From contig JAJYZB010000006.1 of assembly GCA_021800275.1 (NCBI GenBank), forward strand, positions 1 to 64,000: 64,000 nt of DNA, read 5' to 3'. Shown piece by piece: positions 3,139 to 64,000 of the stretch (position 1 is its first letter; every line of letters starts with the position of its first letter). The notes below the pieces were generated by a model. That model did not search any database and was not told the origin of the DNA. It saw nothing but the letters and a program-made list of their open reading frames with translations. This stretch comes from a bacterium. Lineage in GTDB: Bacteria; Vulcanimicrobiota; JABDET01. The position numbers and the translations under genes are program-made.

Positions 3139-4029
3139 ATGAGCATAAAAAAAGCGACTAAATTTCTTCTTGTTTTGATGATGGGGTTAAGTTTTCTGCC
3201 GGGTTTTTCTTCGCCTCGTTCAGGTTATTATGCGCTGGCCGCCAGTGGACATTGTATTTTATTAAGTTCGGGACATCAGATTTTGTTTAATGGACAAGGC
3301 AAAAACCTGGAGGGCAGAGAGTTATTCCCAGGAGAAGTATTGAAGACTTACATGAATGCAAATGTCGTGCTGCTGGAGTATCCACAGATGTTGAGGATGA
3401 CAGTTGGGCAGGACAGTATTTTCAAGATCAACAATTCGCATTCAGTATGGATGTCATTAGGAAGTATTTGGGTAAAGGTTTCACATTTTTTAAAGAAGCC
3501 TTTTAATTTTGAAGTAGAGTCTCCTAATGCGATTGCAGTGGCTCATGGCACAGAATTTGAAGTAAGCACAGGGAATAAAGGTTCAGGAGTTCATGTTTTT
3601 AGAGGAGTAGTTCAGGTTGGAAATAAAGTGAAGATGATTAAAGTGCTGCCTGGATATTATGTTTCCGGTATTAAGGAAAGGTTGGTACCAGAAGCTCCTC
3701 ATCCTTTTAATTTGAAAGAGATCAGAAATCCATGGTGGAGAGCCAATCTGCGATTCAATCGGAAGTTTTCGTATTTTTTGAGAGAACACAGAGCTGATAT
3801 TTTTAAGCGGATAAAAAGAGGGGTTCCATTATCAAGACAATTTAAGATCTTCCGTTTTTATGTTAGGAGACAGACCTTTTTTAGGAGATTAAAAGCAAGA
3901 TGGAAAGGGAAACTACTGCGAAAAGCCAGAGGCTTGCGCGGTCGACTGCAGGGACAGAAGGGGAAAGGGCCACTCTGCTGTAAACCGCGTCATCCGCATA
4001 AACCTTTTTATAAACGTCATCGACGTTAG
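3139..4029 (+). CDS. FecR-domain exported protein (paralogue 1)
   Basis: The 296-residue protein starts with a hydrophobic export signal (KKATKFLLVLMMGLSFLPGFSS). A FecR domain follows at about residues 65-170 (QMLRMTVGQDSIFKI, SIWVKVSHFLKKPFNFEVESPNAIAVAHGTEF, GVVQVG). The C-terminal 80 residues are extremely Lys/Arg-rich. FecR domains occur in periplasmic signal sensors and in stand-alone envelope proteins. No sigma factor neighbours it, so an iron-sensing role is not implied. The SD GGAGG lies 11 nt before the ATG. It is clearly homologous along most of its length to the gene at 6393, suggesting a local duplication around the DUF6600 and crp genes. Confidence 0.75.
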   Translation: MSIKKATKFLLVLMMGLSFLPGFSSPRSGYYALAASGHCILLSSGHQILFNGQGKNLEGRELFPGEVLKTYMNANVVLLEYPQMLRMTVGQDSIFKINNSHSVWMSLGSIWVKVSHFLKKPFNFEVESPNAIAVAHGTEFEVSTGNKGSGVHVFRGVVQVGNKVKMIKVLPGYYVSGIKERLVPEAPHPFNLKEIRNPWWRANLRFNRKFSYFLREHRADIFKRIKRGVPLSRQFKIFRFYVRRQTFFRRLKARWKGKLLRKARGLRGRLQGQKGKGPLCCKPRHPHKPFYKRHRR

Positions 4030-4115
4030 GAAGGTTTAAATGCTCTCAGAGACGTTTGGAATATAAATCTTGCCATTTATTTTGATGAGATGAAGTGTGA
4101 ATAAAGGGGTTCAGC

Positions 4116-4143
4116 AAAAAAAAACGAGAGCCTGAAGGCTCTC
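4116..4143 (-). terminator. Rho-independent terminator for the DUF6600-like operon
   Basis: A 7-bp perfect stem (4126-4132 with 4137-4143, loop of four) is followed on the minus strand by nine T (4116-4124 read as A on plus). It lies just downstream of the minus-strand stop at 4168. There is no T run on the plus side, so it mainly serves the minus-strand genes. Confidence 0.85.
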
Positions 4144-4167
4144 TGAACAGCAGATTTTTAAAGAACT

Positions 4168-4446
4168 TTATTTAAGGTGACTTTTTCTATAAATAATCCC
4201 TTGATGCAGTTGAGAAATTGCCTGCTGCAGCAGGGACATAGCCTGTGCTCTGTGACCTCCAAAAACAGGTGCAGCAGACCGCGCCCAGTTAAAAGAAGCA
4301 TGGGCTTTTTTAGCAGAGACTCTTAATTTATGAATATTGGGGTAACGGAAAGCAGCTCCTGAAATTTTTGGGCTGACCAACATGCCCATTAAAAAAGCGC
4401 CTAAGATCATAAAGATAAAAGCAGCAGTTCTCCATTCTTTTTTCAT
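4168..4446 (-). CDS. Small exported or membrane-anchored protein of unknown function
   Basis: The 92-residue product has an N-terminal hydrophobic segment (TAAFIFMILGAFLMGMLVSP). A short soluble part with predicted helices (KKAHASFNWARSAAPVFGGHRAQAMSLLQQAISQLHQG) follows. I do not recognise the family. Its ATG abuts the TAA of the DUF6600-like gene with no gap, so the two are very likely co-transcribed and translationally coupled. A strong terminator follows 25 bp after the stop. The soluble helix may be periplasmic, working with the product of the preceding gene; this is inference from gene order only. Confidence 0.6.
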   Translation of the reverse strand: MKKEWRTAAFIFMILGAFLMGMLVSPKISGAAFRYPNIHKLRVSAKKAHASFNWARSAAPVFGGHRAQAMSLLQQAISQLHQGIIYRKSHLK

Positions 4447-5361
4447 TTATTTCACCTCCTTTCGAAAATGGAATTTTATTCTTCTTCCTCTGTGTTTTTG
4501 TGGATGAGGTCTGGGTCTCAAATATCGTGGTTTTGCATGAAAAGAATGATATGGATGCTGTTTAGCAGCCTCATTATTCAAAAACAGCCTCTTTCTACCT
4601 ACTTGAACAACACCTTTTTCAGCTTCTATTTTCAAAAGAGGGGTTCGAAATCTCGCTGCTGCAGCAACATGGGGGCGGTAAACATAAATTCGGGTTCCAC
4701 GCTGAGCTTCATAAGAGATTCTATTTGTTGAGACGAGTCTTAGGGGATGAACAAAGACATGAGTTCTCCTTTCCACCAGGTTTACATTAGGACCGCGATT
4801 AATGATAACGTTGTGAATTACAGCAATATTGGTGATGTGGGTTGTGTAATGGATGATTGTTACATTGCGAACCACTGGAACATAATAATGGTAGAGATTG
4901 ACTGAGAGAAAAGCGTGAAATGGAACGAAAACACAGTATCTTGGCACAATTCGAATATAAGCATATGGTGGGAGAGGAGCCCATCCAACATAGGAGGGAC
5001 CAACATACCAGGTGACCCATGCAGGCGCCCATACAGCCCCTGGAATCCACAGCCACCCATAATTAGCTTCATAGACCCATCTCCCATAATGGTCTGTAAT
5101 GGTTCCCCAGGGGCTGTATGAGATCCACATCCATCCATCATTGGTCCAGACCCAGCGCCCATTAGAATAAGGGCGCCAAGAAAAACTTACATGCAGTGGA
5201 GACCAGACTTCCCCATAGTTGGGCACAAAAACCCATCTTCCTTGTGGAGCCAGGTTGTTGTAGAAAAAATTGAAATTGATAGAAACATCAGCTCTGCTCT
5301 GGAGCGTTGTTCCTCCCACAAGGATTGCAATCAAGAAGATTGTTAAAAGTTTACTTTTCAT
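4447..5361 (-). CDS. DUF6600-like exported Trp/Tyr-rich repeat protein
   Basis: The 304-residue protein has a signal peptide (LLTIFLIAILVGGTTLQSRA). A region of Trp/Tyr-rich repeats follows (GRWVFVPNYGEVW, YSNGRWVWTNDGWMWIS, GRWVYEANYGWLWIPG, WAPAWVTWYVGPSYVGWAPLPP). This pattern matches the YXWV/DUF6600 family, which is often encoded beside FecR-domain proteins, as here (FecR genes at 3139 and 6393). The C-terminus is basic and His/Arg-rich. The role is unknown; the family is probably envelope-associated. It heads a two-gene operon and is divergent from the crp-like gene, sharing an intergenic region with a CRP-like operator. Confidence 0.72.
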   Translation of the reverse strand: MKSKLLTIFLIAILVGGTTLQSRADVSINFNFFYNNLAPQGRWVFVPNYGEVWSPLHVSFSWRPYSNGRWVWTNDGWMWISYSPWGTITDHYGRWVYEANYGWLWIPGAVWAPAWVTWYVGPSYVGWAPLPPYAYIRIVPRYCVFVPFHAFLSVNLYHYYVPVVRNVTIIHYTTHITNIAVIHNVIINRGPNVNLVERRTHVFVHPLRLVSTNRISYEAQRGTRIYVYRPHVAAAARFRTPLLKIEAEKGVVQVGRKRLFLNNEAAKQHPYHSFHAKPRYLRPRPHPQKHRGRRIKFHFRKEVK

Positions 5362-5431
5362 GGCTAACTTTGACCTCTGACTTTAATTAAATTGTTTATG
5401 GCTTATCTTATCATGAGTGAAAAGAAATTTC

Positions 5432-5447
5432 TGTGATGTTGATCACG
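5432..5447. promoter_or_regulatory. CRP-type operator in the DUF6600/crp intergenic region
   Basis: TGTGA (5432-5436), six bases and TCACG (5443-5447) match the E. coli CRP consensus TGTGA-N6-TCACA at nine of ten arm positions. It lies between two divergent genes, one of them the local Crp homologue. That protein's recognition helix (RETVSR) resembles the one that reads TGTGA in E. coli CRP (RETVGR). Autoregulation is the likely role, which is inference. Confidence 0.65.
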
Positions 5448-5519
5448 GCGAGGAAATAAAAGGGAAGGAGGATCCAGGCTCGAAATCATAAATTAATCGC
5501 TAATAATCAAGAGTAGGGT

Positions 5520-6200
5520 GTGTCCTTGAAACATTTAACCGATAAAAAAGAGTTCGATTTCAGGATTCTAAAAACAATTCCCATTTTTTCCGAGCTTCCA
5601 GATTCTCGCCTTGAAGCTCTTTTCGAAAAGTTGAAAAGAAATGAATTGAAAAGGAATACCTGTATTTTTTTGGAAGGCGAACCAGGGAAAGAGTTTTTTA
5701 TTGTGGCAAAAGGAAAGGTAAAAATTTTCTTAAGTTCACCTGAAGGGCGGGAAGTAACATTAACTTTTTTAGAGCCCCCTCAGTTTTTTGGGGAGCTTTC
5801 TCTTTTAGATGATCTTCCTCGCTCAGCATCTGCAAGAACAGTCGGGAGTTCTATTTTATATTCTTTACGTAAAGAATCGTTTCAAAATTTTTTGACTGAA
5901 TATCCTCAGGCGGCTCTTAGAATTTTAAAAACGACTACAGAAATGGTGAGAAGATTGACAGAACAGGTGCATTCTCTAGTTTTCAAAGATGTTCAGGGCA
6001 GAGTCGCAAAAAAGATTTTAGATCTCTCGAAAAAACAAATTGGAATAAAATTTACTCATCAAGAATTGGCAAACATGATTGGTTCAGCTCGAGAAACAGT
6101 CAGCAGAGTAATATTGAATCTGGAAGAAAAGAGAGTGTTGAAGATAAATCGCGATGGGATTCAAATTCTTCAAATTCATGAGTTGGAAAAGCTGTTATAA
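5520..6200 (+). CDS. Crp/Fnr-family transcriptional regulator, CRP-like
   Basis: Cytoplasmic DNA-binding regulator of 226 residues, the normal family length. The cyclic-nucleotide-binding domain spans about residues 20-130 with a phosphate-binding cassette at 91-104 (GELSLLDDLPRSAS) that keeps the Glu and Arg-Ser used by E. coli CRP to hold cAMP. A dimerisation helix follows, then a winged HTH at about 165-220 with recognition helix RETVSR (191-196). Only one Cys is present in the N-terminal region, so it is not an FNR-type Fe-S sensor. The GTG start at 5520 is the only plausible one and has a weak SD. CRP-like dyads lie upstream of this gene, upstream of the second fecR gene and upstream of the benzoyl-CoA operon. 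Confidence 0.88.
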   Translation: MSLKHLTDKKEFDFRILKTIPIFSELPDSRLEALFEKLKRNELKRNTCIFLEGEPGKEFFIVAKGKVKIFLSSPEGREVTLTFLEPPQFFGELSLLDDLPRSASARTVGSSILYSLRKESFQNFLTEYPQAALRILKTTTEMVRRLTEQVHSLVFKDVQGRVAKKILDLSKKQIGIKFTHQELANMIGSARETVSRVILNLEEKRVLKINRDGIQILQIHELEKLL

Positions 6201-6392: not shown

Positions 6393-7496
6393 ATGAAAAG
6401 CGCCGCTAAATTTTTATTAGTCCTGTGGATGGGAATCAGTTTTCTGCCAGGGTTTTCTGCTTCTCGTTCAGGATATTATGTCCTGGCTGGAAGCGGACCC
6501 TGTATTTTGTTAAATTCTAAAGGAGCTGTTTTATTTAATGGATTAGGGAGAAAGTTAGAGGGGAAAGAGCTTCTGCCTGGTGAGGTATTGAAGGCTTACA
6601 CGGGTTCAAATATTGTGTTATTGGAGTATCCTCAGATGAATCGATTGACGATTGGTCAAAATAGTATTTTTAAAGTTAAAGGTTCTCATTCTGTTTGGAT
6701 GTCTTTGGGGAAAATCTGGGTGAAGGTTTCTCATTTTTTAAAAAAGCCTTTTAATTTTGAGGTCCAGTCGCCCAATGCTGTGGCAGTGGCTCATGGGACT
6801 GAGTTTGAAGTAAGGGTTGGGAAGAGAAATTCATCAGTTTATGTTTTTAAGGGAGTGGTGCTGGCTGGGAATAAAGAAAAGATGGTCAGGCTTCTTCCTG
6901 GACATTATGTGGCTGGCGTGGAAGAGGGGATGCTTCCACCCAAGCCGCAGGTGTTTAATCTTAAGAAGATTCAAAATCCCTGGTGGAAAGCGAATCTGCA
7001 ATTTAACAGAAGGTTTGGGTTATTTTTGAAATATCATACAACTGCTGTTGTTCAATTGATGAGAAAAGGGATCCCTCCTGCAAATCAATTTCCGATTTTT
7101 CATCAGCTCATAAAAAACACGCATTTTTATAAGACTTGGAATAAAAGATCAAGTGGAATGCCTGTGAGAAAAAATAGAAACTCATACAGACGCTTGAGAA
7201 AACTGAACCATAAAGGATCCAGGCGCATTCCTCTATGGCATCACAGGAAACTCTATCAGCAGGGCAAGCACAGAAAGTCGGATAAAAAAAAGCTCATTAA
7301 CCGATCTTTTAAAAGAGTCAGGTTGTCTTTAAATAGCAACTGTCAGAGCTTTTTTCTTTCCGTGTTCATAGGCTGCATGCACAATAAAAAAGGCAAGCAG
7401 CATGGCAATGATCACAATAATAAGAACGGCCCCCTGTCCCTCATTTTTTCTGCTGCCTCCACCCCAGCCTTTTTCAGAACTTCTGCTTCCTCTTAA
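6393..7496 (+). CDS. FecR-domain exported protein (paralogue 2) with C-terminal read-through tail
   Basis: Export signal, FecR domain (residues about 65-170) and basic tail match the gene at 3139 closely (for example SHSVWMSLGKIWVKVSHFLKKPFNFEV). An ATG at 6387 touches the SD (AGAGG, 6381-6385), whereas the in-frame ATG at 6393 is correctly spaced, so I choose it. Relative to paralogue 1 the protein is about 70 residues longer. The extra C-terminus (from about LSLNSNCQSFFLSV) is the antisense of the minus-strand membrane protein gene at 7329-7934, with which it overlaps 168 bp. The original stop was probably lost by mutation or frameshift. A CRP-like site lies upstream. Confidence 0.7.
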   Translation: MKSAAKFLLVLWMGISFLPGFSASRSGYYVLAGSGPCILLNSKGAVLFNGLGRKLEGKELLPGEVLKAYTGSNIVLLEYPQMNRLTIGQNSIFKVKGSHSVWMSLGKIWVKVSHFLKKPFNFEVQSPNAVAVAHGTEFEVRVGKRNSSVYVFKGVVLAGNKEKMVRLLPGHYVAGVEEGMLPPKPQVFNLKKIQNPWWKANLQFNRRFGLFLKYHTTAVVQLMRKGIPPANQFPIFHQLIKNTHFYKTWNKRSSGMPVRKNRNSYRRLRKLNHKGSRRIPLWHHRKLYQQGKHRKSDKKKLINRSFKRVRLSLNSNCQSFFLSVFIGCMHNKKGKQHGNDHNNKNGPLSLIFSAASTPAFFRTSASS

Positions 7497-51353: not shown

Positions 51354-52136
51354 ATGAATTCTATATCTTCCACTGATTTGATTAGCCTGGAACTCAAGGA
51401 TAAAATTGCCTGGTTCACAATAAATCGTCCCCCGTTAAATATCCTGGATTTGCCTGTTTTAAGGCAGTTTGATCGCCTTCTCAATACTTCCGAAATTCAT
51501 GAGAAAAGTCAAGTTCTTGTGATTCGAGGAGCAGGAGAAAAGGCTTTTTCGGCAGGGGTAGATATAAAAGACCATGCCGTGAATAAAGTTTCTGAAACTC
51601 TCCCTTTATTCCATCAGATTCTCGTTAAACTTAAAAACTTTCCCATCACAACTCTTGCCGCTGTTCACGGGATGGCGCTTGGAGGGGGACTTGAATTAGC
51701 CATGGCTTGCGATCTTGTGATTGCTGAAACCGGGACTAAATTAGGACAGCCTGAGATTAATGCGGGCTGTTTTCCGCCGGCTGCAGCGGCTCTTCTCCCT
51801 GATCTGATTGGAGCAAAAAGAACTTATGAAATGGTTGTTCTGGGATCTATTTTAACGGCTGAGCAAGGATTTCAGTATGGAATTGTCAATGAAGTGGTTC
51901 CTGTGGGCAAACTGATGGATAAAGTGAATGAATGGTGCGAAAAAATTCTCGAAAAAAGCAAGGTTGTGGTCGGATTAGCGAAAGAAGCGGTTAATTTTTC
52001 AACAGGGCTCAGCTTTTCATCAGCCCTTGAAAATGCAGAAGATCTTTATTTGAATCGTCTGACAAAAACTGAAGATTCAGAGGAAGGAATACGCGCTTTT
52101 CTTGAAAAGCGAAAACCAATTTGGAAGGGGTGTTAA
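51354..52136 (+). CDS. dch: Cyclohexa-1,5-diene-1-carbonyl-CoA hydratase
   Basis: Crotonase-family enzyme that adds water to the dienoyl-CoA made by benzoyl-CoA reductase. The 260-residue protein has RPPLNILDLPVLRQFD, the oxyanion-hole segments KAFSAGVDIKDH and HGMALGGGLELAMACDLVIAE, and GQPEINAGCFPPAAAALLPDLIG, which matches the GQPEIRLGVFAPAA segment of Thauera Dch. It ends in EEGIRAFLEKRKPIW, normal for the family. First gene of the operon; oah starts at the next base after its stop. Confidence 0.82.
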   Translation: MNSISSTDLISLELKDKIAWFTINRPPLNILDLPVLRQFDRLLNTSEIHEKSQVLVIRGAGEKAFSAGVDIKDHAVNKVSETLPLFHQILVKLKNFPITTLAAVHGMALGGGLELAMACDLVIAETGTKLGQPEINAGCFPPAAAALLPDLIGAKRTYEMVVLGSILTAEQGFQYGIVNEVVPVGKLMDKVNEWCEKILEKSKVVVGLAKEAVNFSTGLSFSSALENAEDLYLNRLTKTEDSEEGIRAFLEKRKPIWKGC

Positions 52137-53219
52137 ATGTCTCCATTTCAGCCTGAAAAACCAGAAACATTTCATTTTAAAGATATTCGATACGAAAAAA
52201 AAGATTGGGTTGCAACCATTACGATTAATCGTCCTGGTTACTACAATGCTTACAGCACTTTAGCTTTACAAGAAATGACCCGCGCTTTTCAAGATGCCAG
52301 TTGGGATGATGGAATTGCAGTCGTAGTGCTGACAGGTGAAGGAACCCAGGCATTCTGCGCAGGAGGGGATGTTAAGGATTATGAAACCACTTACACAAAG
52401 CGCCCCAGAGAATACTGGAAATGGATGGGAGTCTTTGCCCAGTGTCATGATCAGCTGCGAAATATCGGGAAGCCTGTGATCGCTAGACTTAATGGGATGG
52501 TGGTGGGAGGTGGAAATGAGTTTAACATGGCGTGTGATTTGGCAATTGCAGCTGAACACGTTGCCATTCGCCAGGTTGGAACACGAGTTGGAAGTGTTGC
52601 CTGTGGAGGTGCCACTCAGTGGCTTCCCATTATGGTAGGGGACCGTAGAGCTAGAGAGATTCTTTTTTTATGCGAAGAGGTTGATGCGAAAAAAGCTCTG
52701 GATTGGGGACTTGTGAATCAGGTTGTTCCTTCTGTCACAAAAAATGGGAATCTGCTTCAAAATCCTGATCCTGGTGAAATTAAAAAGGCGTTAAAGGGAG
52801 TGGATGGATACGGAATTACCCTTTCTGAACTGGATCGGGCTGTTGAAACCATGGCGCAGAAACTGGTTCAAAAGTTTCCCGATTGTCTCCGCTACACAAA
52901 AGCACAGGTCAATCTCTGGAAAGATTGGGCATGGAATATGACCATTGGACATGCGAAAGACTGGCTCTCCCTTCATTTTGCCTATCCTGAACCCCATGAA
53001 GGAATGCAGGCATTTGTGGAAAAACGGAATCCAGATTATTTAGGACTGCGGAAAAAAGCGAAATTAGGGAAATCCAGTGAATATTTTTGGGGCGCTCCAT
53101 CGCAGATCTGCCCTTCCTGCCAATCGAAAAATATTCCTGAAGAATTTAAATTCTGCGGGAACTGCGGAGCTTCTCTGACAGCAGAGAAAAATGCCGTTGC
53201 CCTCCCGACAAATGTTTAA
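52137..53219 (+). CDS. oah: 6-oxocyclohex-1-ene-1-carbonyl-CoA hydrolase with C-terminal zinc ribbon
   Basis: Ring-opening hydrolase of the benzoyl-CoA pathway (BamA/Oah type, crotonase fold). Residues 1-300 show FKDIRYEKKDWVATITINRP, FCAGGDVKDYETTYTKRPREYWKWM, VGGGNEFNMACDLAIAAEHV, VGSVACGGATQWLPIMVGDRRAREILFLCEEV and LNEVV-type elements that match Oah more than ordinary enoyl-CoA hydratases. After about residue 320 an extra zinc ribbon is fused (CPSCQSKNIPEEFKFCGNCG), two CxxC pairs, which I do not know from characterised Oah. It directly follows dch. Confidence 0.8.
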   Translation: MSPFQPEKPETFHFKDIRYEKKDWVATITINRPGYYNAYSTLALQEMTRAFQDASWDDGIAVVVLTGEGTQAFCAGGDVKDYETTYTKRPREYWKWMGVFAQCHDQLRNIGKPVIARLNGMVVGGGNEFNMACDLAIAAEHVAIRQVGTRVGSVACGGATQWLPIMVGDRRAREILFLCEEVDAKKALDWGLVNQVVPSVTKNGNLLQNPDPGEIKKALKGVDGYGITLSELDRAVETMAQKLVQKFPDCLRYTKAQVNLWKDWAWNMTIGHAKDWLSLHFAYPEPHEGMQAFVEKRNPDYLGLRKKAKLGKSSEYFWGAPSQICPSCQSKNIPEEFKFCGNCGASLTAEKNAVALPTNV

Positions 53220-54139: not shown

Positions 54140-55339
54140 ATGAGTGCAGTGGAAAACCGTGAAAATCTAAGCAAACCTTTTCAAATCTGGTACGAAAATC
54201 GGCATTTGTACGCCAAAAATTGGAAAGAGAATCACAAGCGGCCAGTGATTGGGATGATGTGCACTTATGTTCCAGAAGAGATTTTGTATGCGGCAGAGAT
54301 GCTGCCTGTAAGAATTCTTGGGGGGCATGAGCCTCAAGCTCTGACAGAATCCCATATTTTCAGCATGTTCTGTCCTTTTTCACGGGATGCTCTTGCCCAG
54401 GGATTAAAGGGAAAATACGATTATGTGGATGCCATTGTTCTGTCTCACTCTTGTCTGCATTTCCGCCAAACGTTTACCAGTTGGAAAATGCACCTCCCGA
54501 TTCAGTGGAGCTATTATCTTCCTATGCCTAATCAAGTTCAGTCTCCTTATGCAAAACAAGAATTTCAGAATGAAGTTCAAAAATTTAAAACTCATATCGA
54601 ACAAGTGTCAGGAAAATCTCTGACTCCTGAATCCCTTATCCAATCCACAGCATTACTGGATAAAAATCGTTCTCTGCTGAGAAAAATTTATGACCTCAGA
54701 AAACAAGAAAATCCACCTATTACAGGGGCTGATGCGGTTTATATGGCTCTGACCAGTCAATTTGTCTCTAAAGAAGACCACAATAAGGCTTTAGAAGAGG
54801 TTCTGAAACAAGTAGAGCAGTTCGCCTCTTCTCAAAAAATAAGTCATAAAGAAACAGAGATTAGAGAAATAAGAACCAGAGAAACGGGTGTCAGATTGAT
54901 GACTATTGGCAGTGAAAATGATGATGTAAAATTTTTTGAAATGGTGGAATCTCTTCCCGCCACCATTGTGTGTGATGAACAGTGCGCCGGCAGCCGTTAT
55001 TTCTGGAATCCATCGGTCCACTCAGGAGATCCTGTCAAGACGATTGCAAATCGTTATATAGATCGCCCCCCTTGCCCCACAAAAGATTATCCTGAAAGAA
55101 GAAGGTTCACTCATATTTTAAAGCTTGTCAAAGAGTATCAGGTTCAAGGAGTTATTTTAATGCAGGAAAAATTCTGTGATCCCCATGAAGCAGACAATCC
55201 CGCTTTAAAGAAATTTTTAGAAGAAAATGAAATTCCAACTCTGACCCTTGAGTTTGATTCCACCAATCCATTAGGACCCCTTAAAATTCGGGTTGAAGCT
55301 TTTTTGGAAACGTTGAGCACAGAGGAGTTGTTTTCGTGA
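54140..55339 (+). CDS. bcrC: Benzoyl-CoA reductase subunit C
   Basis: One of the two Fe-S subunits of the ATP-dependent dearomatising reductase, 399 residues, 2-hydroxyglutaryl-CoA dehydratase subunit family. Motifs: [28 protein letters not shown], conserved Cys in [18 protein letters not shown] and [13 protein letters not shown], and the [13 protein letters not shown] segment. Later [15 protein letters not shown] also matches. Length fits BcrC/BadD (about 385). It overlaps bcrB by 4 bp. Confidence 0.88.
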
Positions 55340-56646
55340 AACACTATCTAACTGAACCTTTAAAATGCTGGAATAAAGCAAAAGAGATCCGTCAAAAATA
55401 TTATGAAGATTATGCGAAAGCCCATGAGAATGGAGGGCTTAGATGGAGCGGTTCTGCCTGGACATTTGATGCTCTTGCTGCAGGACTTGGAAAAGATGTT
55501 TATCCTTTAACAGGGGAACCTTATGCAGCTTCCATTGCTGCCAATCCTGAGTTTAATACAGCCTGCCAGGCCGCTGCTGATGAAAAAGGATGGCCTAGAG
55601 ATCTGTGCGCCTATATGCGAACTTACTGGGGATCTATGTATTTAAATCGCTATTTATGGGGAGGTCCTTTCCCCAAAGCCGATTTTATTCTTCAAATCCA
55701 AATCTGCTGCAGCCACAGTAAATGGTATCAGGTGGTGGCTGAACATGAAAAGGTTCCTCTTTTCTGCATTGATGTTGGGGTCGGACCTTATGAATCTTTA
55801 GATGAATCCCGTTTAAATTATGTCGTGGATCAACTGCAGGACGCGATTCAATTTTTAGAAAAAACAACAGACAGAAAATTTGATGATCAACTGTTTATTG
55901 AGGCTGTAGAAAATGAATGCCGCTCTACTTCCCTCTGGGCAGAAATCTGCGCTTTAAATAAAGCGATTCCTGCTCCTCTGGATGAAAAAACCATGTATTC
56001 TCTTTATGTGTTGGCAACACTTCACAAAGCATCAAAAACAGTGGCAGATTTTTATGAAGAGCTGAGAGATGAGGTAAAAGATCGGATTCAAAAAGGGATC
56101 GCGGCTTGTGTGAATGAAAGATGCCGCCTTATCACAGATACCCAGCCCCCCTGGAGTTTTCTCAAAATTTATCGCTATTTAGAAGAGTACGGGGCTGTTT
56201 CTATTGGCTCTCTTTATACTTTTGGATTAGAAGGAATTTTTGCGGAGCAGCCGGATGGCTCCTGGGGACCGCGCCCTACTCCTTCTCAATTGGGAATCAG
56301 GATCAAGACCAGAGAACAGGCTTTAAAGATTTTAGCGGATTGGAACCTTTCAAAACCCCAGTGGCAGCATTTTTATGATCCGGATTTAAAAACAAAAATG
56401 ATTCTGAGGATTGTCAAAGAGTGGAAAGTGGATGGGGTTATTCTGCATTTAAATCGAGGATGTGAAGGATTGTCCCTTGGGATCATGGAGAACCGTTTAG
56501 GGATCGCAAAATCTGGAATCCCAGTGATGACGTATGAAGGGAATATGGCGGATGAGCGGGAGTTTGACATGAAAAAAACCTTGAGTCGAATCGAGACTTT
56601 TATGGAAACCCTTAAATTAACGAAACTGGAAGAGAAAGTGGTATGA
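55336..56646 (+). CDS. bcrB: Benzoyl-CoA reductase subunit B
   Basis: Second Fe-S subunit, 436 residues, the expected BcrB/BadE length. Sequence features: [63 protein letters not shown], and conserved Cys near [13 protein letters not shown]. The C-terminal [24 protein letters not shown] block is also conserved. With BcrC it holds the active-site cluster. No BamB-type tungsten subunit is present, so this is a class I enzyme. Confidence 0.9.
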
Positions 56647-56674: not shown

Positions 56675-58426
56675 ATGATTGCAGTGGGCATGGATCTTGG
56701 GGCAAAAGCGATTAAAATTGTGGTCCTGTCTGATAAAGGACTCTGTGCAAAGGTAAAATTTTTTCCTGATCTGGACCTGGCGCGATCAGCTAAAAAAGCG
56801 TTAGAAGAAGCTCTTATTCAGGCAGGGGCCGAGCGGCATGAAGTGAAAGGAATTGCGGCGGCAGGAACAGGGCGTTCTGCAGCTCCTGGAAGCCCTGTGC
56901 TTGTGACAGAACCATTAGCAGATGCAAAAGGGACTGCGGCTTTATTCCCCCAGGTTCATACCGTCATTGATGTTGGAGCTGAAGAAGGTCGTGGTGTTAG
57001 AATAACCCCTCAAGGAGAAGTTGTGGATTTTGCCGTGAATGAAAAATGCGCAGCAGGTTCAGGGGCTTTTATGGAGTCTATGGCAAGATCTCTGGAATTG
57101 AATATTGATCAATTCGGATCGATTTCTCTGAAAGCCAATCAAGCTGTCCCCATGAATGCCCAGTGCACCGTTTTTGCGGAATCAGAAGTGGTTTCTCTGA
57201 TTCATGCCAATACCCCAAAAAGTGATATTGCTCGGGCAGTCCATGATGCTGCAGCCAGTCGAATTGCAGCCATGACCCGAAGAGTGGGAATAGAAAAAGA
57301 AGTGGCTTTAATCGGGGGAACTGCCTATAATCCTGGTTTTGTGGATGCTCTCAAAAGAGCCCTTTCGATTGAGGCGCTGTTGATTCCCAATCATCCTGAT
57401 TTCATAGGAGCCCTCGGGGCAGCTTTAATTGCTTGTGAACACAGTGAATCCATAAAATTGGATTTTTTGCAGCTGAGTTCTCAGTGGGAAACTGTTCCTG
57501 CTCATCTGTTCACAAGTGACGGAAAAACGGAAAACATGACAGCAGCAGAAAGCGTTGTTGAACATTGGAAATGGCCCGAACAGTTTAATGCTGATTTGTC
57601 ACAGGATTGGAAAAAAGCGACTCGAATCACTGCAGGAATTGATGTGGGATCAGTCAGCTCTCAAGCGGTTGTTCTTCTGGATGGAAAACTTTATGCCTGG
57701 AGCAGTGTTAGAACAGGTTCTTCAAGTCCTGACAGCGCAAAAAAAGCCCTTGATCAGGCGATTAAAAATACAGATCTTCCTTTTGATAAAATTTCTTATG
57801 TCGTTGGAACAGGCTATGGGAGAGTAAATGTTCCTTTTGCTAAAAAAACAATTACTGAAATTGCATGCCATGCGCGAGGAGCCAATTACATGGGAGGAGG
57901 AACAATCCGAACTATTTTAGATATGGGAGGACAGGACTGTAAAGCTATTCACTGTGATGAAAAAGGGAAAGTGACGAATTTTTTAATGAATGATAAATGC
58001 GCTGCAGGAACAGGAAGAGGAATGGAAGTCCTGGCAGATCTGCTCAGAATACCCATTCAGGAAATTGGACCGATGTCTTTAACAGTGCAGGAAGAGCCTC
58101 CCCCAGTTTCCAGCGTGTGCGTTGTTTTTGCTAAAACAGAAGCCATTGGACTGCTGAAATCAGGATGGCCCGTGGAAAAAGTTTTGGCTTCTTACTGTTT
58201 AGCAATGGCTGAACGAGTAACCGCTCTTTTAAATCGGATTGGAGTTGAAAAAGATTTTTTCATCACAGGAGGGATCGCGAAAAACATCGGAGTTGTAAAA
58301 CGAATTGAAAGAATTCTGGGAATAAACGCTCTCAACAGTTCCCTGGATTCTCAAATTGCTGGAGCTCTTGGAGCCGCGCTTTTTGCCAATGCCCTCTTAG
58401 AAAAGGAATGGAGAGGAAAGTCATGA
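56675..58426 (+). CDS. Fused benzoyl-CoA reductase activator ATPase (BcrD-like plus BcrA-like)
   Basis: The 583-residue protein joins two BadF/BadG/BcrA/BcrD ATPase domains. Domain 1 (about 1-265) is BcrD-like: VGMDLGAKAIKIVVLSD, TVIDVGAEEGRGVRI, NEKCAAGSGAFMESMARSLE, NAQCTVFAESEVVSL. Domain 2 (about 318-580) is BcrA-like: AGIDVGSVSSQAVVLLDG, TILDMGGQDCKAIHCDE, NDKCAAGTGRGMEVLADLL, SSVCVVFAKTEAIGLL. In Thauera and Rhodopseudomonas these are separate subunits bridged by one [4Fe-4S]. Here each half keeps its CAAG cluster Cys and a later V-C Cys. It follows bcrB by 28 bp. Confidence 0.88.
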   Translation: MIAVGMDLGAKAIKIVVLSDKGLCAKVKFFPDLDLARSAKKALEEALIQAGAERHEVKGIAAAGTGRSAAPGSPVLVTEPLADAKGTAALFPQVHTVIDVGAEEGRGVRITPQGEVVDFAVNEKCAAGSGAFMESMARSLELNIDQFGSISLKANQAVPMNAQCTVFAESEVVSLIHANTPKSDIARAVHDAAASRIAAMTRRVGIEKEVALIGGTAYNPGFVDALKRALSIEALLIPNHPDFIGALGAALIACEHSESIKLDFLQLSSQWETVPAHLFTSDGKTENMTAAESVVEHWKWPEQFNADLSQDWKKATRITAGIDVGSVSSQAVVLLDGKLYAWSSVRTGSSSPDSAKKALDQAIKNTDLPFDKISYVVGTGYGRVNVPFAKKTITEIACHARGANYMGGGTIRTILDMGGQDCKAIHCDEKGKVTNFLMNDKCAAGTGRGMEVLADLLRIPIQEIGPMSLTVQEEPPPVSSVCVVFAKTEAIGLLKSGWPVEKVLASYCLAMAERVTALLNRIGVEKDFFITGGIAKNIGVVKRIERILGINALNSSLDSQIAGALGAALFANALLEKEWRGKS

Positions 58427-58716
58427 TTGCCAATTATGGTTATACCGATGGATCAGGAGAATATTTCATCACGATTGATACCTCTTTCTGCCTTGAATGT
58501 AAAAGCCATTCCTGTGTTTCAGCTTGTCCTCAAGGGGTTTTTGAAATCATCACTGATGACTATGATGAACCCGCCTGTTCAGTGAAAGAATCGTTCAGAA
58601 AACAATTGAGTTATGTCTGTTCTCCCTGCAAGCCTGCGCGGAAATCCTCTGTTCCCCCTACTTTTCTTCCTTGTATCCAATCCTGTTTGAGTCGAGCCAT
58701 CAAACACACATGGTGA
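58423..58716 (+). CDS. Small Fe-S (ferredoxin-like) protein
   Basis: The protein of about 97 residues has a first Cys cluster C-x2-C-x4-C-x3-CP (CLECKSHSCVSACPQG), then a second Cys pattern (CSPCKP, CIQSC). This is an uncommon ferredoxin-like arrangement; probably two [4Fe-4S] clusters. ATG at 58423 has a GAGAGGAAA SD and is preferred over an upstream in-frame codon at 58408 inside the ATPase gene. It overlaps the next Fe-S gene. In the operon it may pass electrons to the reductase. Confidence 0.75.
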   Translation: MIANYGYTDGSGEYFITIDTSFCLECKSHSCVSACPQGVFEIITDDYDEPACSVKESFRKQLSYVCSPCKPARKSSVPPTFLPCIQSCLSRAIKHTW

Positions 58717-59819
58717 ACGCAGTGTCTGCCGATCGAACCGCAGTAAAATTGAGAATTGATGAAACCGATTACCAGATTCAAGAAGGGATTACCCTTTTAG
58801 ATGCCTGCTTACAAACAAATCATTATGTTCCTGCTCTCTGCGCCCACCCCGATCTTCCAACAGTTGGAGAATGCGGCCTCTGCATTATAAAGATATCTAC
58901 CCAGGAGGAACCTGTTCTTGCCTGCGCAGAAAAAGTATCTGATGGAATTTCAATCCTCAGCAGTTCCCCTGAGCTTCAAAAACTTCGTCAAAAAAGGCTC
59001 TCCCAAATTTTAAAAGACCACCCTCATGTTTGTTTAACCTGCCCTCATCAAGATGGATGCGATCGAACAGAATGCACTCTTGGATTTTCAATAGAGGAAC
59101 GATGCTGCTCTCAATTTGGGAAATGTGAAATCCAAAAAGTGAGCCATTATATTGAAATTTCACCGGATACCCCTCCTTATCGTCCTTCCCATCTACCTAT
59201 TTGGGAAAAAGATCCTGTGATTCGATTAAACCTTGAACTCTGCATTGGGTGCATGAGATGTGTGGATGTCTGCTCAAAAGTGATGGGATACAATGCTCTC
59301 TCTTCTTTTATTTTTAATTCTCGATCACTGGTTAAGCCCATGAAAGCAGACCTGACAGGAACCTCTCCCTCAGGAGCGAACCCGGGAGCTGGTTTTAAAG
59401 AATCTGGGTGCAGATTTTGTGGAGCCTGTGTGGAAGTTTGTCCTGCAGGGGCTGTCATTGAATATGGAAAAAATGGGAGCCGCTGGAGAGAAAAAACAAA
59501 AAGCAAATTGAATTTTTCTTCTTTACCAGTTCCTCCAAGCAAAACCATCTCTTTAGAATCTTCTAATCTTTCTTTTGTTCCAAACGAACCTGGAGTTTAT
59601 CGTTTGTGGAATGAAAAAGGTGAACTATTTGCAGTCGAAGGCTCACCCAATTTGAAAAATTCGCTTAAAGAGGAAATAGAGAATCAAAAAAACGGATTTG
59701 GTTTCGATTTTGAAGTTGTTCAATTTTACACTCAAAGAGCCAATGAGCTACTCCAAAGTCATTTAAAAAGATCAGGGAAGCTCCCTGATGGAAATGAGAT
59801 CTTGGATGATCTGTATTAG
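58710..59819 (+). CDS. NuoG-like multi-cluster Fe-S protein with GIY-YIG-like C-terminal domain
   Basis: Domains in order: [2Fe-2S] plant-type/NuoG N-terminal domain (CAHPDLPTVGECGLC near residues 45-60), a His/Cys [4Fe-4S] domain (HPHVCLTCPHQDGC), then two classical [4Fe-4S] clusters (CIGCMRCVDVC and CRFCGACVEVCP). The last 85 residues (PGVYRLWNEKGELFAVEGSPNLKNSLKEE ... FEVVQFY ... LLQSHLKRSGKLP) look like a GIY-YIG fold without obvious catalytic residues. It resembles electron-bifurcating or hydrogenase-linked electron-input subunits. The start at 58710 overlaps the previous gene; an upstream in-frame ATG at 58671 is less likely. Confidence 0.72.
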   Translation: MVNAVSADRTAVKLRIDETDYQIQEGITLLDACLQTNHYVPALCAHPDLPTVGECGLCIIKISTQEEPVLACAEKVSDGISILSSSPELQKLRQKRLSQILKDHPHVCLTCPHQDGCDRTECTLGFSIEERCCSQFGKCEIQKVSHYIEISPDTPPYRPSHLPIWEKDPVIRLNLELCIGCMRCVDVCSKVMGYNALSSFIFNSRSLVKPMKADLTGTSPSGANPGAGFKESGCRFCGACVEVCPAGAVIEYGKNGSRWREKTKSKLNFSSLPVPPSKTISLESSNLSFVPNEPGVYRLWNEKGELFAVEGSPNLKNSLKEEIENQKNGFGFDFEVVQFYTQRANELLQSHLKRSGKLPDGNEILDDLY

Positions 59820-60313: not shown

Positions 60314-60374
60314 GATATGACCTAGGCACTTCAGCTAATGATATTTTTGCAAAATATTGAAAGGAGTTTTTAAC

Positions 60375-61409
60375 ATGAAAGCCGCTGTTTTTTATGGAAA
60401 AAATGAAAAACTAAGGATAGAAGATTGGCCTGTTCCCAAAATTGAATCTGATGAGATTTTAGTACAAGTAGCAGCCTGCGGTGTTTGTCATACGGATCTG
60501 CACTATCTGGACCATGGAGTTCCCACATTTAAAACTCCCCCCCTTATTTTAGGACATGAAGCTTCAGGAATAGTTTCAGAGTGCGGAAAAGGTGTTGAGG
60601 GATTTAAACCAGGAGAACGAGTTCTTCTCCCTGCTGTTTATGCCTGTGGGAAATGTTTTTACTGCAGAAAAGGGAGAGAGAACATCTGTCAAACCATGAT
60701 CATGTTTGGGAACAATGTGGATGGAGCTTATGCTGAGTATGTGAAAATTCCCGCCAAAGATCTTTTTCATCTCCCTGATGAAATTCCCCTGATTGAAGGG
60801 GCTGTTATTGCTGATGCTGTTTCCACTCCCTATCATGCTGTGAAAAACAGGGCAAAGATTCAGCCCGGAGACACAGTGGCTGTTTTCGGATGTGGAGGAG
60901 TAGGAATCAATGTGATTCAAATGGCTTCTGCAGCAGGAGGAACTGTGATTGCTGTTGACCGCATCCCCCAGAAACTGGAACTGGCGAAGCAGTTCGGAGC
61001 CCAGTACGGGATTCATTCAGGGGAAAAAGATGTCAGGAAAGAGATTAAAAAATTGACAGGTGGAGGGGCTGATGCTGCAATTGAAGCAATTGGGAATCCG
61101 GAAGTAATGAATCTTGCTTTTGAATCATTAAGACCAGGGGGGAGATTGTGCATTATTGGGTATTCGGATCAGAATGTTCTTTTCAGCGCTGCAAAAATCA
61201 TGTATCGGGAAATGGAAATTGTGGGTTCTCTCGGATGTCCCCCAATTGAATATCCGAAAGTCATTGAAATGGTTCGAATCGGAAAAATTAAAGTGGCTCC
61301 CTTAGTCACCCATCAATTTCCTTTAAATCAAATTGAAGAAGCTTTTGAACTTCTCAGAAAAGGGGAAGGGCTTAGATCTGTGGTGATTCCCGCCACAGGA
61401 CTTAAATGA
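60375..61409 (+). CDS. had: 6-hydroxycyclohex-1-ene-1-carbonyl-CoA dehydrogenase (zinc alcohol dehydrogenase family)
   Basis: Oxidises the hydroxyl formed by Dch to the 6-oxo compound for Oah, using NAD+. The family pattern is present: CGVCHTDLHYLDHG (catalytic zinc Cys), GHEASGIVSECG, structural zinc CGKCFYCRKGRENIC, and the Rossmann motif VFGCGGVGINVIQMA. 344 residues. Assignment to Had instead of a generic ADH rests on the operon (dch, oah, bcr). ATG at 60375 has an AAAGGAG SD; the TTG at 60357 is not needed. It overlaps the thiolase by 4 bp. Confidence 0.8.
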   Translation: MKAAVFYGKNEKLRIEDWPVPKIESDEILVQVAACGVCHTDLHYLDHGVPTFKTPPLILGHEASGIVSECGKGVEGFKPGERVLLPAVYACGKCFYCRKGRENICQTMIMFGNNVDGAYAEYVKIPAKDLFHLPDEIPLIEGAVIADAVSTPYHAVKNRAKIQPGDTVAVFGCGGVGINVIQMASAAGGTVIAVDRIPQKLELAKQFGAQYGIHSGEKDVRKEIKKLTGGGADAAIEAIGNPEVMNLAFESLRPGGRLCIIGYSDQNVLFSAAKIMYREMEIVGSLGCPPIEYPKVIEMVRIGKIKVAPLVTHQFPLNQIEEAFELLRKGEGLRSVVIPATGLK

Positions 61410-62611
61410 AAAAAGTGGTGATTGTCAGCGCTGTGCGTACTCCTTTAGGAAAATTTGGAGGGGCGCTTTCTTCTTTAAACGCTGTAACTCTAGGAATCCT
61501 GGTTGCAAAAGAAGCAGTTGCACGGGCGGGTATTTCTCCTGATCAAATTCAAGAAGTAATTTTTGGAAATGCCAGACAGGCGGGAAATGGACCCAATCCT
61601 GCCCGACAGATTGGGATTGGAGCAGGGATTCCAGTGGATACTCCGGCTTATACTGTGAATCAAGCCTGCGCTTCCGGAATGAAATCCATTATTCTTGGTT
61701 ATCAGGCAATTGTTTTAGGAGATGCTGATGTCGTTTTATGCGGAGGAACAGAAAGCATGTCCAATACCCCGTTTCTTTTTAGAAAGATGAGGGCTGGCAT
61801 TCGACTCGGTCATGCAGAAGTTGAAGATGGAATGTATCGGGATGGTTTTATGTGTCCAATGGCAAAAATGCTTATGGGTGAAACCGCTGAAATTTTAGCA
61901 GAAAAGTTTAAAATCTCTCGAGAAGAACAGGATGAATATGCAGCTCTGTCTCAGCAGAGATGTGAAATTGCCCGAAAAAACGGGCTTTTTGATGAAGAAA
62001 TAATTCCTGTTGAAGTTCAGCAGAGTGGCCCTTCTGTCTTAAGTTTAGACCGCATCAAAACGACCCTTGTCACGTCAGATGAAAACCCTAGAGATGGTGT
62101 AACAGCTGCCGCATTAAACAAACTTCCCCCTGCTTTCAAGAAGAATGGAACAGTCCATCCCGGAAATTCTTCAGGAATCACAGATGGAGCAGCAGCCATT
62201 ATTTTAATGTCTGAAGAAAAAGCGGCAGAACTGAAAACCCCAATTTTAGCTCGAATTGAAAATTATGCAGTGACAGGCGTGGATCCAACCTTAATGGGGC
62301 TTGGTCCGATCAAAGCCGTTCGTCTTTTGGAAAAAAGAGCTGGTGTTTCTGCTCTAGAAGTGGATTTAATTGAACTGGGCGAGGCATTTGCAGTTCAGGT
62401 TTTAGCCTGTAATCAAGAGTTGAAACTGGATAGGGCAAAACTCAATGTGAAAGGCGGATTTATTCCTTTAGGTCATCCTATCGGATGTTCAGGAGCCAGA
62501 ATTATCGTTACTCTTGTTCATGAAATGAAAAGAAGAAAAGCTTTAACAGGGCTTGCAGCTCTTTGTGTCAGCGGAGGGATGGGAGCAGCCCTTATGTTGA
62601 GATTAAATTAG
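61406..62611 (+). CDS. Acetyl-CoA acyltransferase (thiolase)
   Basis: The 401-residue thiolase carries the nucleophilic Cys in NQACASGMKSI (about residue 88), GHPIGCSGARI (catalytic His, about 350) and CVSGGMGAALML (second Cys). The usual NEAFA motif reads GEAFA (ELGEAFAVQ), replacing the Asn that helps form an oxyanion hole. In the operon it would cleave 3-oxopimeloyl-CoA or a shorter 3-oxoacyl-CoA. Its stop codon lies at the base of the terminator hairpin. Confidence 0.88.
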   Translation: MKKVVIVSAVRTPLGKFGGALSSLNAVTLGILVAKEAVARAGISPDQIQEVIFGNARQAGNGPNPARQIGIGAGIPVDTPAYTVNQACASGMKSIILGYQAIVLGDADVVLCGGTESMSNTPFLFRKMRAGIRLGHAEVEDGMYRDGFMCPMAKMLMGETAEILAEKFKISREEQDEYAALSQQRCEIARKNGLFDEEIIPVEVQQSGPSVLSLDRIKTTLVTSDENPRDGVTAAALNKLPPAFKKNGTVHPGNSSGITDGAAAIILMSEEKAAELKTPILARIENYAVTGVDPTLMGLGPIKAVRLLEKRAGVSALEVDLIELGEAFAVQVLACNQELKLDRAKLNVKGGFIPLGHPIGCSGARIIVTLVHEMKRRKALTGLAALCVSGGMGAALMLRLN

Positions 62612-62660: not shown

Positions 62661-64000
62661 TTACCGTTTAATCGCTTTTTCAAGAGCTCCTAGACCTGCT
62701 GCCATAGCGGCTGAGGTTTTAATGCTGTTCCACCACATGATTGGTTTTCCTTCTCTCATGGTATGACATCTCTGGCAGTAAGGGATATTAGGATTGTCTT
62801 TATAAGCCCACATTTGCCCTTTGACTCTTCCCATCAGAAAATCTTTTAAAGTGGCTTGATTGGGCCACCAGATATGATTGGGGTTGTGGTCCTTAACAGA
62901 GTAAATGGAGTTGCAGGGGGAAGGTATCCGATCACAAATATGAGGGGGATTATTTAAGTTTTTAATCAGAATATCACCTGTCATCGCATGATAAGCGCTC
63001 CAGGACAAACCAGGAACTCTGCCAGGAGGAGGAACAACAGCAGAAGGGGGAACTGCTTTAAGAATATACACCACATTGGCGATCAGATTGAATTCGCTGG
63101 CAAGAACTCGGGAATCTTTATGAATTTTCTGCAGATCACTTGAAGCGCTTCCTAAAAGAGAAGAGAGTTGGCTTTTACTGGAAGGCGCAGGATGGAGCTG
63201 CTGCACAATTTGCTGAAAATTTTGATCTGTGGATTTGATATTTTTCATCTTTTGATCCCAGACAGAAAATTTCTGAGTGAAAAGGGAAGTCATATAAAGT
63301 TCTCGGAGTTGACTTTTAAGTCTAAACATGGTTGAATTGAGAGTATTGAGTCTCTGAGGCAGCAGCCCACCTAATTTATAAATTTTATAGGTTAATAGTT
63401 TTAACATATTGGGACCATAATGAGAAAGATTATTCGCTGTTTGTTGGGTTGAGCCGGATAGAGCTGCTGTAAAGGAGAGAAGATTTTCATGGAGAGAGGC
63501 AGCAGTTGAAGCAGTTTGAAAAGTAGAGCGAAGTTCATCTTTAATGGCAGCGATTCTTGAAGGGGGAAGGAAAGCTAACTGGATCGGCTTTTTAGCCACC
63601 GGTTTTTTCTTGATGATGGGTTTGTGTTTAATAGCCACTTTGACAGGCTTATGAGTAATGGGTTTTGGTTTAATAACCACCGGTTTTTTCTTCACTGAAA
63701 CTTTGATAGGTTTTGGGGAAACCTTTACAGGTTTATGGACCGGTTTGAGTTTTACAGCCACTTTCTGTTCTGCAATCCATTTTTTAGCAAAAGTTTCCGT
63801 TTTTCTGTTTCTGTCAAACCAGTAGAAGCCGACCCCTTTTCTGGCAGGATGACATCTCAAACAGTAAGGGACCCGAATGGTATTTTTATAAGGGAACTGC
63901 TGTCCTTTCACTTTTCCTAAAAGAAGATCTAAAAGAGAGGCTCGATCAGGCCAAACAGTATGGGCGGGGTTAGTGTCTTTTCGAGAGTAAGCAGGCCGCG
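62661..64000 (-). CDS. Multi-domain c-type cytochrome-like protein (N-terminus beyond right edge)
   Basis: The minus-strand frame stays open to the window edge, beyond a GTG at 63911, so the gene is partial at its 5' end. Two similar modules are visible, each reading about KDxNPxHxxWPxxAxLxDxLxGxVKGQ...YK...PYCxRCH, with CXXCH haem-binding motifs CLRCH and CQRCH. Between them is a Lys/Pro/Val repeat linker (KPVKVSPKPIKVSVKKKPVV) and a helical section. It is probably an exported haem protein for extracytoplasmic electron transfer. No export signal can be seen because the N-terminus is missing. Confidence 0.7.
   Translation of the reverse strand, partial: RPAYSRKDTNPAHTVWPDRASLLDLLLGKVKGQQFPYKNTIRVPYCLRCHPARKGVGFYWFDRNRKTETFAKKWIAEQKVAVKLKPVHKPVKVSPKPIKVSVKKKPVVIKPKPITHKPVKVAIKHKPIIKKKPVAKKPIQLAFLPPSRIAAIKDELRSTFQTASTAASLHENLLSFTAALSGSTQQTANNLSHYGPNMLKLLTYKIYKLGGLLPQRLNTLNSTMFRLKSQLRELYMTSLFTQKFSVWDQKMKNIKSTDQNFQQIVQQLHPAPSSKSQLSSLLGSASSDLQKIHKDSRVLASEFNLIANVVYILKAVPPSAVVPPPGRVPGLSWSAYHAMTGDILIKNLNNPPHICDRIPSPCNSIYSVKDHNPNHIWWPNQATLKDFLMGRVKGQMWAYKDNPNIPYCQRCHTMREGKPIMWWNSIKTSAAMAAGLGALEKAIKR

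Follow-up and report, generated by a model that had tools for sequence, protein, structure and literature searches.

A probable single-chain BzdPQ activator of a bzd-type class I benzoyl-CoA reductase in a Vulcanimicrobiota genome

In the 64,000-nucleotide window analysed here (contig JAJYZB010000006.1 of assembly GCA_021800275.1, positions 1 to 64,000), one gene carries two ATPase domains in a single reading frame, and its product is probably a BzdPQ electron activator made as one chain, serving a class I benzoyl-CoA reductase of the bzd type. Such reductases are a familiar kind of enzyme that opens aromatic rings in the absence of oxygen. The chain is most likely a covalently pinned BzdPQ heterodimer that would activate BzdNO, so that the predicted enzyme would consist of three chains, as a preliminary description of this DNA had proposed. 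With moderate confidence, we favour a further reading, in which BzdPQ would be an obligate single-chain asymmetric activator, with P and Q pairing only intramolecularly in a three-chain reductase, and in which this arrangement would have evolved independently at least two times. The features of the gene are as follows.

56675-58426, + strand: fused bzdPQ gene, 583 aa, with an ATG start, a Shine-Dalgarno (SD) sequence GGAG (-6.4 kcal/mol) and a TGA stop
56675-57442, + strand: BzdP domain, residues 1-256, 51% identical to Aromatoleum anaerobium BzdP (L010)
57047-57049, + strand: C125, cluster cysteine 1 of the BzdP domain (NEKCAAGSG)
57164-57166, + strand: C164, cluster cysteine 2 of the BzdP domain (NAQCTVF)
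57435-57460, + strand: fusion junction; a same-genus relative has the SD AGGCGG, TAA and ATG (GGCGGTGAATTAATG), and the window lacks two bases and reads CCA for TAA and ATA for ATG
57443-57535, + strand: interdomain linker, residues 257-287, with predicted disorder from residue 273
57536-57538, + strand: ATG in frame, placed where BzdQ usually starts, with a weak SD (-3.5 kcal/mol), a possible internal start for free BzdQ
57536-58423, + strand: BzdQ domain; the Q half alone scores 457 bits with TIGR03192 (cutoff 380)
57998-58000, + strand: C442, cluster cysteine 1 of the BzdQ domain (NDKCAAGTG)
58118-58120, + strand: C482, cluster cysteine 2 of the BzdQ domain (SSVCVVF)

Open reading frame analysis found all 583 codons free of stops, and the frame is continuous in the assembly across 57420-57640, the region between the domains. 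Pfam recognised two BcrAD_BadFG domains, both above cutoff (56684-57433 and 57635-58387), and no other domain in the protein; these results bear out the earlier claim that both ATPase halves lie in one unbroken 583-residue frame. Across the 2.46-Mb, 98.1%-complete genome these two are the sole BcrAD_BadFG domains, and bzdPQ is thus the single activase copy in the genome. Each half retains a phosphate-1 motif (GMDLGAK at residue 5 and GIDVGSV at residue 321), a phosphate-2 motif (DVGAEEGR at residue 99 and DMGGQDCK at residue 416) and an intact Gly-rich adenosine motif. The preliminary description had read ATP motifs and one cluster cysteine into each domain, and while the motifs stand, the cysteines number two per domain. 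All four of these cysteines are invariant across 33 aligned sequences, and with the four ligands kept, a [4Fe-4S] cluster is predicted to bridge the two halves of BzdPQ.

The two domains were typed with family models, synteny and phylogeny. The whole protein scored 553 bits with the NCBIfam BzdQ model TIGR03192 (cutoff 380), whereas scores with the BcrA model TIGR02259 (227 bits, cutoff 578) and the BcrD model TIGR02261 (228 bits, cutoff 313) fell below their cutoffs. These equivalog cutoffs rule out BcrA/BcrD typing, and with it the initial assignment of the gene as bcr-type with a BcrA second domain; of the proposed D-then-A chain, the order holds as P(D)-then-Q(A). NCBIfam gave no BzdP match for domain 1, nor for Aromatoleum BzdP itself; however, domain 1 sits between the bzdO and bzdQ positions, and its DVGAEEGR motif is typical of BzdP. 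In the tree, the P half falls within the split-BzdP clade and the Q half within the BzdQ clade, with a support of 100 for the branch that separates them. By synteny and phylogeny, domain 1 is thus assigned to BzdP, and domain 2 is assigned as a full BzdQ. The trimming of BcrA suggested earlier is likewise ruled out, because BzdP (about 260 aa), BzdQ (about 290 aa) and the linker account for the 583 aa and leave nothing trimmed. On this sequence evidence the locus encodes a class I benzoyl-CoA reductase of the bzd type (Azoarcus/Aromatoleum) in which P and Q form one gene; since bzd genes are normally ordered N-O-P-Q, the fusion only joins neighbours. The separate P and Q chains of the standard four-subunit enzyme are not encoded, as no stop lies between the domains; bzdPQ is therefore a variant within the bzd-type family, not a standard member.

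The linker was compared with the locus of a same-genus relative, MAG YP4.bin17 (locus L053, genome G001), in which P and Q are separate genes. By its sequence, the linker derives from the N-terminal extension of the relative's BzdQ. Over the 20 codons that could be aligned, synonymous differences (7.5/13.5) exceed nonsynonymous ones (7.5/46.5; rough Fisher p 0.005), and this excess indicates that the linker is probably translated, formerly and now. Since the P half has no stop codon, free BzdP cannot be made and occurs only in the fused form. The ATG at 57536 raises the question of free BzdQ, which would coexist with the fused chain as a mixed product if translation also began there. That ATG stands at the canonical BzdQ start, the protein read from it would be a full BzdQ, and the position homologous to it in L053 is a TTG (6864) with a strong SD (-8.7 kcal/mol), one of two SD-supported candidate bzdQ starts in that locus (the other being the ATG at 6780, -7.1 kcal/mol). 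However, the SD at 57536 is close to the mean of -2.6 kcal/mol for 68 internal ATGs, whereas most genes of the cluster have values of -4 to -11 kcal/mol; any extra free Q would have no partner, free P being impossible; and a second fused gene (L038, discussed below) lacks both an ATG and any SD-supported start in the linker ahead of its BzdQ domain. A mixed product is accordingly considered unlikely, and the single fused chain remains the preferred product.

The fused gene lies in a cluster together with bzdN, bzdO and genes of the lower benzoyl-CoA pathway, and the main members are listed here.

51354-53219, + strand: pair of genes of the crotonase family that belong to the lower benzoyl-CoA pathway; the second is Oah-like
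54140-55339, + strand: bzdN, double-cubane catalytic subunit; TIGR03190 507 bits (cutoff 454), PDB 8s02 chain B E=7e-147
55336-56646, + strand: bzdO, substrate-binding catalytic subunit; TIGR03191 706 bits (cutoff 449), PDB 8s02 chain A E=6e-203
58423-58716, + strand: BzdM-like ferredoxin, with an ATGA overlap with the bzdPQ stop; an orthologue lies 3' of bzdQ in relatives
58671-59819, + strand: [2Fe-2S]/[4Fe-4S] protein resembling the N-termini of NuoG and HydA, a possible ferredoxin-reducing partner
60357-62611, + strand: Had-like dehydrogenase and thiolase, also part of this cluster

PDB entry 8s02, matched by the products of bzdN and bzdO, is the crystal structure of Aromatoleum BzdNO. The gene order is crotonase, Oah-like hydrolase, short-chain dehydrogenase, bzdN, bzdO, bzdPQ, ferredoxin, FeS protein, acetyltransferase, Had-like dehydrogenase and thiolase, and it is identical in L053, the one same-genus relative examined. 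From the family and the gene cluster, benzoyl-CoA is the predicted substrate. Another aryl-CoA, such as a substituted benzoyl-CoA, could be reduced by the same fused enzyme, and this would recall strain NaphS2, in which expression of a bzdNOPQ-like cluster rises on naphthalene and not on benzoate (PMC2988823); the Oah and Had homologues of the window also score below their equivalog cutoffs. In contrast, BzdN, BzdO and BzdQ all score above theirs and a lower benzoyl-CoA pathway set is present in the cluster, so that a different substrate appears improbable and benzoyl-CoA is retained. Three further observations concern the neighbouring genes. The Oah-like hydrolase (52137-53219) scores far short of the equivalog cutoff, and its C-terminus carries a zinc ribbon (CPSC...CGNC) that is unexpected in this family. 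A C-terminal stretch of the FeS protein at 58671-59819 resembles DUF7508, just below the Pfam cutoff. A minus-strand frame at 62661-63998, open at the window end, has a stretch of KPVK-rich repeats as well as the CxxCH motifs CLRCH and CQRCH.

In L053, the TAA of bzdP overlaps the ATG of bzdQ (TAATG) with AGGCGG upstream, and P and Q are in different frames; at the junction of the window, the ancestral SD, stop and start are all lost. The comparison indicates, at the level of sequence, that the fusion happened recently and locally, from ordinary adjacent P and Q genes. Within the genus, the fused state is found in one genome only, the sole same-genus relative examined being split and syntenic. 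The 2-base deletion alone is enough to join the frames, and by itself it might conceivably be an error, in which case the locus would really hold two genes, split at precisely the same place as in L053 and falsely joined by a 2-base indel. However, the substitutions of TAA to CCA and of ATG to ATA, added to the deletion and accompanied by the destruction of the SD, argue against a simple sequencing error, and they are expected once stop, SD and start are no longer needed. The deletion also lies outside any long homopolymer, and the neighbouring genes are intact and of full length against L053, which makes an assembly or sequencing error very unlikely. Decay to a non-functional gene pair, which might be suspected because decaying genes can lose their stop and start signals, is so improbable as to be negligible, given that selection on both halves is purifying (dN/dS about 0.09 for P and about 0.05 for the Q core, values that are rough since dS is about 1), the catalytic residues are all kept, the frame is open and the cluster is intact.

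The preliminary description had suggested looking for the same fusion in other genomes. In a scan across species, 442 stretches were confirmed to encode some relative, and the best 80 were fetched; a fused locus is expected near the top of this ranking, because it yields one long alignment. Besides the window, one of these best 80 of 442 loci is fused, namely L038 from the Actinomycetota MAG AS06rmzACSIP_50. Its bzdPQ has the same P-then-Q single chain and is 54% identical to that of the window; however, the nearest relatives of L038 have two separate genes and L038 is distant from the window in the tree, which points to an independent fusion and thus to at least two, sporadic origins. In L038, the fused gene (3278-5991) lies directly 3' of 2-oxoacid:ferredoxin oxidoreductase-like genes that could supply its ferredoxin. 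BzdO was not found in the L038 MAG, and the split relatives G105 and G114 have distant BzdO matches only (28%). Two apparent signals in the scan were set aside. An excess of same-frame P/Q pairs in relatives (70/78) is not evidence of anything, since the search ranks by single alignments and favours such pairs; pairs in different frames, although closer in identity, come last in the ranking. Apparent fusions with a negative gap (L077 and many activases) arise where one domain is matched by both queries. No description of a fused BzdP-BzdQ or BcrAD protein was found in the open-access papers searched, and this agrees with the earlier remark that no described example was known.

An AlphaFold2 model built from a paired alignment showed two confident ASKHA domains (mean pLDDT 87.9; pTM 0.76 as the sole interface measure), and pLDDT fell below 50 only in the disordered stretch at residues 273-293. 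Both halves match activators of the MbdQ/MbdP/HgdC type by sequence or fold, and among the best 50 PDB matches no activase chain spans both domains. The study of BzdNO (PMC11971306) describes BzdPQ as its ATP-dependent activator, in which a [4Fe-4S] cluster bridges the subunits; binding to BzdNO is probably only transient. On that view, the fusion alters the activator module and not a permanent four-subunit complex. In the proposed mechanism, the two halves would fold back on each other like the BzdP/BzdQ heterodimer, within one molecule, and two cysteines per half would hold one bridging [4Fe-4S] cluster. The adjacent ferredoxin would donate electrons to BzdPQ. With hydrolysis of ATP, BzdPQ would hand on electrons at low potential, first to the BzdN double-cubane cluster and then to BzdO, where benzoyl-CoA would be reduced to the 1,5-dienoyl-CoA. 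The fusion would fix a 1:1 stoichiometry and force asymmetric P-Q pairing, and the chemistry should stay unchanged; the cluster, ATPase activity, pairing and substrate of BzdPQ are all predicted from sequence.

Among the closest known systems is BzdPQ of Aromatoleum (Azoarcus) sp. CIB, with which the gene cluster shares the N-O-P-Q-ferredoxin order, the domain types, the cluster cysteines and the partner subunits; the difference is that P and Q are two chains there and one chain with a linker of about 40 residues here. MbdQ/MbdP of the 3-methylbenzoyl-CoA reductase of Thauera chlorobenzoica (PDB 9gai) share the fold of the halves, the ATP motifs and the heterodimeric activator, but they are not joined in one chain, enzymes of the MBR type form a permanent complex, and MbdP carries DIGGQ where the BzdP half of the window has DVGAEEG. 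The 2-hydroxyacyl-CoA dehydratase activators HgdC and HadI (1hux, 4eht) belong to the same ATPase family and have the same cluster cysteines; however, they are homodimers of one gene product with single-electron recycling chemistry. CoA-enzyme activases of about 1400 aa (e.g., L107) likewise carry two BcrAD_BadFG domains per chain, which gives the layout a precedent in the wider family; however, they have additional C-terminal domains (DUF2229 in L107), show about 30% identity and are not BzdP/BzdQ. Pfam detected no DUF2229 in bzdPQ, which is therefore not classed as a tandem CoA-enzyme activase.

With P and Q naturally in one chain and their 1:1 pairing guaranteed, the activator could be easier to produce, and the P and Q ATP sites could be mutated separately to probe each ATP hydrolysis. 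In other respects bzdPQ departs only slightly in architecture from a well-known enzyme; if the reading favoured here is true, at least two origins of the fusion imply that fixed 1:1 pairing of P and Q is tolerated or favoured.
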